Made by a program: the position numbers and the translations under genes. Below the pieces are notes generated by a model. That model searched no databases and had not been told where the DNA came from. It worked only from the letters and a program-made list of their open reading frames with translations. 64,000 bases of DNA from Klebsiella michiganensis (lineage in GTDB: Bacteria; Pseudomonadota; Gammaproteobacteria; Enterobacterales; Enterobacteriaceae): contig NZ_PRDB01000004.1 in NCBI RefSeq assembly GCF_002925905.1, positions 62,001 through 126,000 on the forward strand, read 5' to 3'. Positions 54,784 to 57,160 of the stretch are shown in pieces (position 1 is the stretch's first letter; the number at the start of each line of letters is the position of its first letter).

Positions 54784-55401
54784 ATGAACATGATTAAGCA
54801 ACCGCTGCGCGTCGGCGTCGGCGGCCCGGTCGGCTCCGGAAAAACCGCGCTGCTGGAAGCCCTCTGCAAAGCCATGCGCGACACCTGGCAGCTGGCGGTG
54901 GTGACCAACGATATCTACACCAAAGAAGATCAGCGCATTCTCACCGAGGCTGGCGCCCTGGAGCCTGAACGAATTGTCGGCGTCGAAACCGGCGGCTGCC
55001 CGCATACCGCTATTCGGGAAGATGCGTCGATGAACCTTGCCGCAGTGGAAGCGCTGAGCGAGAAATTCGGCAATCTCGATCTCATCTTTGTAGAAAGCGG
55101 CGGCGATAATCTGAGCGCCACCTTCAGCCCGGAGCTGGCGGATCTCACCATCTACGTCATCGACGTGGCGGAAGGGGAAAAAATCCCGCGCAAAGGCGGA
55201 CCGGGGATCACCAAATCCGACTTCCTGGTGATCAACAAAACCGATCTTGCACCGTACGTGGGCGCGTCTCTGGAAGTGATGGAGCGCGATACCCTGCGCA
55301 TGCGCGGCGAACGCCCGTGGAGCTTCACCAACCTGAAAAGCAGCGACGGCCTGCAAAATATCATCGCCTTTATCGAAGACAAAGGCATGCTCGGCAAGTA
55401 A
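54784..55401 (+). CDS. ureG: Urease accessory GTPase UreG
   Basis: A 205-residue SIMIBI-class GTPase that powers nickel and CO2 delivery to urease. Motifs in order are the P-loop [17 protein letters not shown], the nickel-binding CPH in [14 protein letters not shown], and [13 protein letters not shown] for guanine recognition. The ATG at 54784 gives a length equal to K. aerogenes UreG; the much longer upstream frame only overlaps ureF. Last gene of the urease operon. Confidence 0.97.
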
Positions 55402-55405
55402 CCCC

Positions 55406-55422
55406 TGCACCATCCCGGCGCA
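55406..55422 (+). promoter_or_regulatory. NtrC-type enhancer site upstream of the permease gene
   Basis: TGCACC-ATCCC-GGCGCA differs from the NtrC dyad TGCACC-N5-GGTGCA at one base. Its centre is about 115 bp upstream of the start predicted from the sigma-54 promoter at 55503, a normal enhancer distance. A second half-site, GGTGCA, lies at 55436-55441. The same bases also form a 12-bp stem (TGCACCATCCCG with CGGGATGGTGCA), so a hairpin role after ureG is an alternative or added function. Confidence 0.65.
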
Positions 55423-55502
55423 GAGGTGTCGGGATGGTGCATACCCTGCCCTCTCTTTAACCATCCCCTTCATGAAGCCCTGATAGCGCCTGCCCTGCGA
55501 TG

Positions 55503-55518
55503 TGGCATAAGGTTTGCT
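55503..55518 (+). promoter_or_regulatory. Sigma-54 (-24/-12) promoter of the permease gene
   Basis: TGGCATAAGGTTTGCT has the invariant GG at 55504 and GC at 55516 with exactly ten bases between. It agrees with TGGCAC-N5-TTGCT except for one base. The expected start is near 55529, giving a leader of about 23 nt before the preferred ATG at 55553. Confidence 0.75.
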
Positions 55519-55552
55519 AATTCCAGTCATGCCTAACCATTAAGGAATGACT

Positions 55553-57160
55553 ATGTCATCACTGGATATAAAAACTGATTTACCTGCGCAAACCAGTGCC
55601 TCCGGCTCCAAAGAAACGCTGGAAGATTATACCCTTCGCTATGCTCCGCTGAGCTTTCGCCGCTGGGGACCGGGGGTTGTCGCGGTGACCGCATTGGGCG
55701 GCATCGCCTATCTGGCTGACTTTTCTATCGGCGCCAGCATCGGCATGGCCTGGGGCACCACCAATGCGATTTACGCGATCCTGCTGGCGGCGCTGGTTAT
55801 TTTTCTTACCGGTATTCCGCTGGCGATTACCGCCGCGCGCTATAACATCGACCTCGACCTGATCACCCGCAGCGCCGGTTTCGGCTACTTTGGTTCGGTG
55901 ATCACCAGCATTATCTTCGCCGGATTTACCTTTATCTTCTTCGCGCTTGAAGGCTCGATCATGGCGCAGGGGCTGCTGGTGGGCCTGGGGATCCCGCTGT
56001 GGATGGGCTACCTCATCGCCACGCTGATGGTCTTGCCGCTGGTGGTCTACGGCATGAAGGCGCTGACTCGCCTTCAGGTCTGGACGACACCGCTGTGGCT
56101 GGTCCTGATGGTGGTTCCGGTGGCGTGGCTTATCGCCAAAGATCCGGATCTGGTGGACGGCTTTATGAACTTCGCCGGTAAAAACAACGCCTCAACGGTA
56201 GATTTAACCGCCATTATGCTCGGCGCGGGGGTCTGCCTGTCGCTGATCATGCAGATTGGCGAGCAGATCGACTATCTGCGCTTTATGCCGCCGAAGACCG
56301 CGGAAAACAGCAAAAGCTGGTGGCTGGCGGTGTTCTCCGCCGGCCCGGGCTGGGTCGTATTAGGCGCGATTAAACAGATTATCGGCGCTTTCCTCGGCTT
56401 CTATCTGCTGACCCGCTTCCCGGCGGTGCACAACACCGAACCGGTGCAACAGTTCGTCAGCGTCTTCGATAACCTGGTCCCCGGCTGGCTGGCGCTCACC
56501 CTCGCGGTGGTGCTGGTGGTTATCTCGCAGATTAAAATTAACGTCACCAACGCCTATTCCGGCTCTCTGGCGTGGACCAGCGCCTGGACGCGCACCACCA
56601 AACGTTATCCGGGGCGGATTATTTTCGTCATCGTCAACCTGACGATTGCCCTTGCCCTGATGGAAGGCGACATGTTTAGCGCTCTGGCGTGGATCCTCGG
56701 CTTCTATTCTAACTTTGCCATCGCCTGGGTGGTGGTGGTCGCCACCGACATCACCGTCAACAAAGGGGTGCTGAAGCTGGCGCCGGCGCAGCCGGAGTAT
56801 CGCCGCGGGATGATCTACAACGTCAACCCGGTAGGCGTGGTCTCTTTTGCCCTCGCGGCAGGCCTTTCGATTAGCGCCTTCTTCGGCCTGCTGGGCGAAA
56901 CGCTGGCGCCGTTCTCGCCGCTGATTGCGCTGGCGGTGGCTTTCGTGATGACGCCGGTCATGGGGATCGCCACCCGCGGGCGCTATTACATTAAACAGCA
57001 CGATGATGGTATCGCCGAGCCGCGCTACGATGCGCAGGGTAACGCGTCGATCACCGTTTACCGCTGCCTGAGCTGCCGGGAAGAGTACGAACGTCCTGAC
57101 GTGATGCATTCGCACAAGCACCAGGGGGCGATTTGCTCGCTGTGTAAGAGTATGGAATAA
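55553..57160 (+). CDS. NCS1/CodB-type permease with a C-terminal zinc-ribbon-like tail
   Basis: A 535-residue inner-membrane transporter of the nucleobase-cation-symport-1 (purine/cytosine/allantoin permease) type, with about twelve hydrophobic spans. Typical is the N-terminal RYAPLSFRRWGPGVVAVTAL and the SQIKINVTNAYSGSLAWTSA helix. After the last span there is a cytoplasmic tail with YRCLSCREEYE and GAICSLCKSME, two CxxC pairs that could bind zinc; CodB has no such tail. AAGGA lies six bases before the ATG at 55553, and an ATG at 55547 abuts it. It follows ureG but has its own sigma-54/NtrC-type control, so a nitrogen-source substrate is likely. The exact substrate cannot be read from the sequence. 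Confidence 0.82.
   Translation: MSSLDIKTDLPAQTSASGSKETLEDYTLRYAPLSFRRWGPGVVAVTALGGIAYLADFSIGASIGMAWGTTNAIYAILLAALVIFLTGIPLAITAARYNIDLDLITRSAGFGYFGSVITSIIFAGFTFIFFALEGSIMAQGLLVGLGIPLWMGYLIATLMVLPLVVYGMKALTRLQVWTTPLWLVLMVVPVAWLIAKDPDLVDGFMNFAGKNNASTVDLTAIMLGAGVCLSLIMQIGEQIDYLRFMPPKTAENSKSWWLAVFSAGPGWVVLGAIKQIIGAFLGFYLLTRFPAVHNTEPVQQFVSVFDNLVPGWLALTLAVVLVVISQIKINVTNAYSGSLAWTSAWTRTTKRYPGRIIFVIVNLTIALALMEGDMFSALAWILGFYSNFAIAWVVVVATDITVNKGVLKLAPAQPEYRRGMIYNVNPVGVVSFALAAGLSISAFFGLLGETLAPFSPLIALAVAFVMTPVMGIATRGRYYIKQHDDGIAEPRYDAQGNASITVYRCLSCREEYERPDVMHSHKHQGAICSLCKSME

Follow-up and report, generated by a model that had tools for sequence, protein, structure and literature searches.

Which signal switches on the permease gene behind the urease cluster of Klebsiella michiganensis, and what does the protein import? 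We analysed a stretch of 64,000 nucleotides (the window, to which all positions refer) from a genome of 6.19 Mb. The urease genes read from their translations as ureDABCEFG, and the last of them, ureG (54784-55401, plus strand, from the list of open reading frames), stops at 55401. The permease gene follows on the same strand (55547-57160), and downstream of it, on the opposite strand, lies a gene that reads as tsaD. The protein has 537 amino acids counted from the first ATG (55547) and 535 counted from the second (55553). The ribosome binding site AAGGA (55542-55546, plus strand) abuts the first ATG and is best spaced for the second, therefore ATG 55553 is probably the true start codon.

The initial annotation of this region described a sigma-54 element with GG-N10-GC spacing 44 bp before the first ATG and a near-perfect NtrC dyad about 115 bp upstream of the predicted start; both were borne out. 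The -24/-12 element TGGCATAAGGTTTGCT is located at 55503-55518 (plus strand), with GG at 55504-55505 and, ten bases further, GC at 55516-55517, and thus shows the fixed spacing in a consensus context. Alignment of the 16 same-genus loci carrying the permease showed that the 16-mer is unchanged in all of them. In sigma-54 promoters the start of transcription is placed 12 nt downstream of the GC, which would be near 55529 (plus strand). The genome has 38 matches to the pattern TGGCAN6TTGCW and 15 to its reversed control, thus a single match is weak proof of a promoter.

The NtrC-like site TGCACC-N5-GGCGCA (55406-55422) deviates at one position from TGCACY-N5-RGTGCA. Its centre is at 55414, some 115 bp from the putative start of transcription; a GCACY-N5-RGTGC-like dyad is found roughly 100 bp upstream of the promoter, as in an NtrC enhancer. 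A weaker second site, GGTGTCGGGATGGTGCA (55425-55441), is possible from reading the sequence, with a fit in the right half only. With up to one mismatch the NtrC pattern is found at 31 places in the genome, compared to 20 for the control. Only as a pair do the two elements go beyond chance: an NtrC-like site was sought 50-220 bp upstream of the 38 strict sigma-54 matches, and five of the 38 have one, centred 73-125 bp upstream. Random placement gave a mean of 0.03 pairs and produced at least two in 12 of 20,000 runs; a downstream control over an equal distance range gave no pairs. The five genes are glnK-amtB (amtB was identified by reading its translation), nac, codB, a gene for an UrtE-like ATPase and the permease in the window. 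glnK-amtB and nac are known NtrC targets, and the distance between dyad and sigma-54 element at the permease falls into the range spanned by the other four.

Thirteen stretches from other genera were scanned. Sigma-54 sites with a 12/12 fit to the consensus are located before the allophanate hydrolase genes of loci L072, L073 and L081 and before the Acinetobacter permease of L082; a further 12/12 site, in L078, is directed towards the neighbouring kinase gene. The match in L080 is 11/12 and the remaining stretches reach 9/12 or have none (no match of at least 9/12 in the scanned stretches of L033, L074 and L077). At 100-102 bp before the element an NtrC-like site begins in L072 (two mismatches), L073 and L081 (three each); before the elements of L080 and L082 none was found at up to three mismatches. 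Since shuffled sequence yields an NtrC-like site with up to three mismatches in 7-22% of trials, the sites in L073 and L081 count for their common position only. The claim that NtrC and sigma-54 directly activate a nitrogen-source importer is well supported by the pairing with known targets in the same genome, the 16/16 conservation and the 12/12 sites in other genera, and direct control of the permease by NtrC and sigma-54 is very likely.

A 36-bp inverted repeat with NtrC-like half-sites, a feature absent from the initial annotation, spans 55406-55441, and the dyad forms its left part. The repeat begins 4 nt past the ureG stop and can fold as an RNA hairpin with 16 pairs and a 4-nt loop; a stretch of 165 nt folds with a z of -3.15. 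The repeat pattern that we tried has no second match in the genome when up to three mismatches are allowed. According to a different explanation the repeat is merely the 3' hairpin of the ure transcript, a terminator or mRNA stabiliser; its likeness to an NtrC site would be accidental and sigma-54 control would act via another activator or site. The position behind ureG and the strong fold agree with this, as do the pair counts, which were made on 12 distinct sequences from the alignment of the 16 loci: 95.8% of the cells pair, and 7 cells, all in two pairs, have both sides changed, a count that none of 500 shuffles reached. Eight of 500 shuffles matched the covariation score, but 82 had as many covarying pairs and 443 as many pair types, so the covariation is modest. 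Nine of the 16 pairs are invariant, and these include the outer six inside TGCACCA/TGGTGCA, which argues against a mere hairpin. All 16 loci share the left arm TGCACCA; L006 and L007 deviate at the last base of TGGTGCA. An intrinsic terminator would have a GC-rich stem followed by a T-run: the stem is present, but no T-run follows it, and the terminator scan has no entry there. In the two genomes with ureG and no permease (G006 and G007) the repeat is absent after ureG and another palindrome is found instead, which separates the repeat from ureG, though in one lineage only. Together with the spacing to the sigma-54 element, which fits the other four pairs, these observations make a mere hairpin very unlikely, and a function as terminator only is not favoured. 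The repeat would be NtrC-binding DNA that may double as the 3' hairpin of the ure transcript.

Upon nitrogen shortage, phosphorylated NtrC would thus bind the site in the inverted repeat and activate sigma-54 RNA polymerase at the downstream element, so that the permease would be switched on directly by NtrC and separately from the ure operon. For the ure operon of K. pneumoniae, one of two promoters is described as NAC-dependent (Liu and Bender, 2007, as cited in PMC3415461).

The protein matches PF02133 with 38.1 bits (cut-off 23.5). None of the NCBIfam models matches it, though cytosine and allantoin permease models exist there. Comparison of the predicted model with known folds (Foldseek, top 1000 chains) placed CodB (7QOA) and Mhp1 (2JLN, 4D1A, 2X79) above all other folds. 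By sequence and predicted model it is a highly divergent member of the NCS1 permeases: it shares the fold of CodB and Mhp1 but is only 16-17% identical to them, differs at two residues in TM3, has an additional CxxC tail and is encoded in urea-linked gene neighbourhoods. A sequence search of the PDB gave no match, and a profile search gave only a LolA chain (E 0.7). The urea transporter DUR3 (9VIM, SSS family) reached a Z tied with many transporters of other substrates and thus shows no special kinship to the permease. One of the two TM3 positions is Glu135, found in 42/42 aligned relatives, where Mhp1 has Gln. The other is the Trp of Mhp1, a ring-stacking residue, which is Phe or Tyr in 42/42 relatives. 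The zinc-ribbon-like tail (CxxC...CxxC, residues 507-533; 57065-57145, plus strand) has all four Cys in 34/42 relatives and is incomplete in 8/42, including rows from Nocardia, Gordonia and Mycobacterium; it is retained in the aligned relatives that are fused to a kinase. Three of the 42 rows (L152, L153 and L154, each marked plain) are fused proteins; they duplicate fused rows of the tree, and the four label changes counted there are therefore an artefact.

The window permease is not CodB. The codB gene of this genome is separate and reaches 590.9 bits against the NCBIfam cytosine permease cut-off of 326, while the window protein does not match that model. Like the window permease, codBA encodes an NCS1 permease and has upstream NtrC-like and sigma-54-like sites. 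In its locus (L189:1705-5620, G000:C31) codB is followed by a gene for a PucR-like regulator and a codA-like gene, both read from their translations. The database names of the listed relatives of the window protein are mostly purine-cytosine, cytosine or allantoin permease; these labels rest on the Pfam family.

The gene neighbourhoods, which carry most weight in the question of what is imported, point to another substrate. Among 20 same-genus genomes, including this one, ureG matches at 93% identity or more were found in 18, and the permease is present in 16 of these 18 and in neither of the other two. A near-identity search in E. coli genomes gave no match. Across 295 genomes of the family, six had a permease match at 1e-50: two in the same genus, two in other genera (72% identical) and two in frames of kinase length. 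In the two other genera (G140 and G195) the permease, about 72% identical, lies directly behind genes for allophanate hydrolase, urea carboxylase and a GntR protein; in L072, both enzymes are above their NCBIfam cut-offs. Orthologues that are 72-75% identical have as neighbours either urease or the genes of an unrelated pathway, urea carboxylase/allophanate hydrolase. The compound shared by these two systems is urea, which suggests urea as the substrate. Some urea-carboxylase-like enzymes use guanidine, and guanidine may be the substrate in urea-carboxylase operons.

For a wider survey we took the best 80 of 501 relatives from named loci with flanks of up to 10 kb; several loci are truncated where their contig stops, and related Streptomyces and Nocardia contribute many of them. 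The nearest one found is Klebsiella oxytoca NBRC 105695, with a 99% identical permease. With class thresholds of our own choice, and with the UrtB and UrtE queries left out of the classes, 15 of the 80 have urease genes, five have urea carboxylase/allophanate hydrolase and eight have FmdA, together 27 loci, as one is counted in two classes. Five further loci have a kinase match only and 48 of the 80 are without any marker gene, which counts against the urea reading. A genomic link to urea breakdown is present via two unrelated systems beside orthologues. Rough gene calls around the actinobacterial relatives revealed no general pattern. None of 20 control NCS1 loci has urea or FmdA markers; this set covers few NCS1 types, with 18 loci from the same genus, 19 from the PF02133 search and one (L211) from another search, and L196 and L210 shorter than the others. 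In the tree the window protein belongs to a fully supported clade of seven, which includes rows from Rosenbergiella and from a six-genome Acinetobacter set, reduced to five. Its members are neighbours of urease (window, L080), urea carboxylase/allophanate hydrolase (L081, L082) or a permease-kinase (L077, L078, L079).

The initial guess for the substrate was a pyrimidine, a hydantoin or an allantoin-like compound whose breakdown gives urea. This reading has on its side the Pfam family, the closest solved folds, CodB and Mhp1, and the names of relatives; it is quite unlikely, since the names derive from the family, codB is a separate gene, relatives adjoin urea- or formamide-degrading genes and the ring-stacking residue of Mhp1 is replaced throughout. 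These neighbours suggest urea itself rather than a urea precursor. A somewhat stronger contender keeps the control by NtrC and sigma-54 and takes formamide, acetamide or another short amide as the main substrate; the adjacency to urease would then reflect a shared nitrogen regulon only. It agrees with the FmdA genes in eight of the 80 loci and with AmiF-type formamidase genes beside relatives in L135 and in the urt clusters of L033, L074 and L075. In M. smegmatis, msmeg_3402, a possible member of this branch labelled 'cytosine permease', is induced 7.8-fold upon nitrogen starvation together with the formamidase gene msmeg_3403 (9.3-fold), according to PMC4222082, and a SIMBAL study cautions that amides may be the cargo of urea-like ABC transporters next to formamidases (PMC3098086). 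That this genome already encodes UrtA of a urea transporter (see below) also fits this reading. The clade of seven is marked by urease and by urea carboxylase/allophanate hydrolase and has no formamidase, which speaks against a main substrate of this kind and makes it unlikely. Urea is probably the main substrate. On the whole we lean towards a secondary importer of the NCS1 fold, switched by NtrC and sigma-54, that would supply the adjacent urease with urea and perhaps with small amides such as formamide.

UrtA of a urea ABC transporter is encoded elsewhere in this genome (591.8 bits); of the 20 same-genus genomes, 17 exceed the cut-off (this genome and 16 of the 19 others). Thus, another urea importer exists, which speaks against the urea reading; the permease would as a rule be an additional path for urea, and a role as the sole urea importer of this genome was rejected. 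One genome, G012, has the permease and ureG and no UrtA above the cut-off. UrtABCDE shares the proposed substrate and nitrogen control with the permease but is an ABC transporter of unrelated proteins. Energy-dependent urea uptake in Klebsiella was reportedly described by Jahns and others in 1988, and Urt could account for uptake of this type. Nitrogen stress raises UreABC and UrtABCDE in K. oxytoca M5a1, and control by NtrC and sigma-54 was suggested on the basis of data not shown (PMC8381380). The main text of that study does not contain the words permease, cytosine or urease and therefore neither supports nor contradicts a role of the window gene. A search of largely open-access literature showed no NCS1 urea carrier among the results examined.

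Searches for other urea channels in 21 genomes gave no match to AmiS/UreI (PF02293), and for UT (PF03253) this genome gave only a fragment of 74 amino acids with internal stops. The fragment (G000:C15:423193-423516) contains two TAG and one TAA and is perhaps a decayed urea channel or a chance match. The UrtE-like gene of the pairing test is a lone ABC ATPase gene on the minus strand (L187:4776-5498, G000:C8), between bioD- and uvrB-like genes and 45 bp behind the sigma-54 match. It reaches 206.9 bits with TIGR03410, below the cut-off of 285.8, and no other urt genes were found in the 7 kb read around it; it is perhaps a remnant of a urea transporter operon.

In 14 loci the relative is an open frame of 1,089-1,239 amino acids, consisting of the permease domain and further sequence that is kinase-like in 13; all 14 fall into one clade of the tree. 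The H-box pattern is not matched in four of them (L033, L074, L075, L153): L033 matches kinase models, its kinase part has matches at 76% in L074 and L075, and the only link of L153 to the kinases is length-wide BLAST clustering. The fused frames are divergent from urtA in L030-L033, L074 and L075. The L033 gene (L033:5393-8773, G015) is located beside urtABCDE and the formamidase gene, and at 99% identity or more its kinase gene is found in 352 of 72,556 plasmid records, of which 337 are from Klebsiella and 285 are predicted to be conjugative. The eight plasmid rows viewed label it 'ATP-binding protein'. A plasmid UrtABC/AmiF cluster is known in K. pneumoniae ST307 (PMC5506382, PMC13060141), and the term histidine kinase is absent from the main text of PMC5506382. 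The fusions of the L030 and L033 type resemble the transceptor kinases of the CbrA type (SLC5-STAC; PMC13022988) in having a transporter domain fused to a kinase; the CbrA type has an SLC5 domain, whereas these fusions have a domain of the NCS1 branch with the CxxC tail. The window permease, in contrast to the CbrA type, has no kinase part.

We see about even chances that this NCS1 branch, labelled cytosine or allantoin permease, is a widespread family of urea and short-amide transporters, and that in one lineage the domain was turned into the sensory part of hybrid histidine kinases; such urea transceptors would adjoin the genes of urea ABC transporters and also be found on many Klebsiella plasmids. 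If this is true, the label of a large protein group would be corrected (4,811 proteins at E <=1e-20 among 7,998 candidates scored), urease-bearing enterics and Acinetobacter would have a second way to import urea, directly controlled by nitrogen, and a ligand would be named for a class of transporter-like sensor kinases. A urea-type NCS1 branch would surprise transport specialists. In four Acinetobacter loci (L077, L078, L079 and L123) a plain permease adjoins a permease-kinase with a LuxR-type regulator, a predicted transporter and a predicted sensor of one branch side by side.
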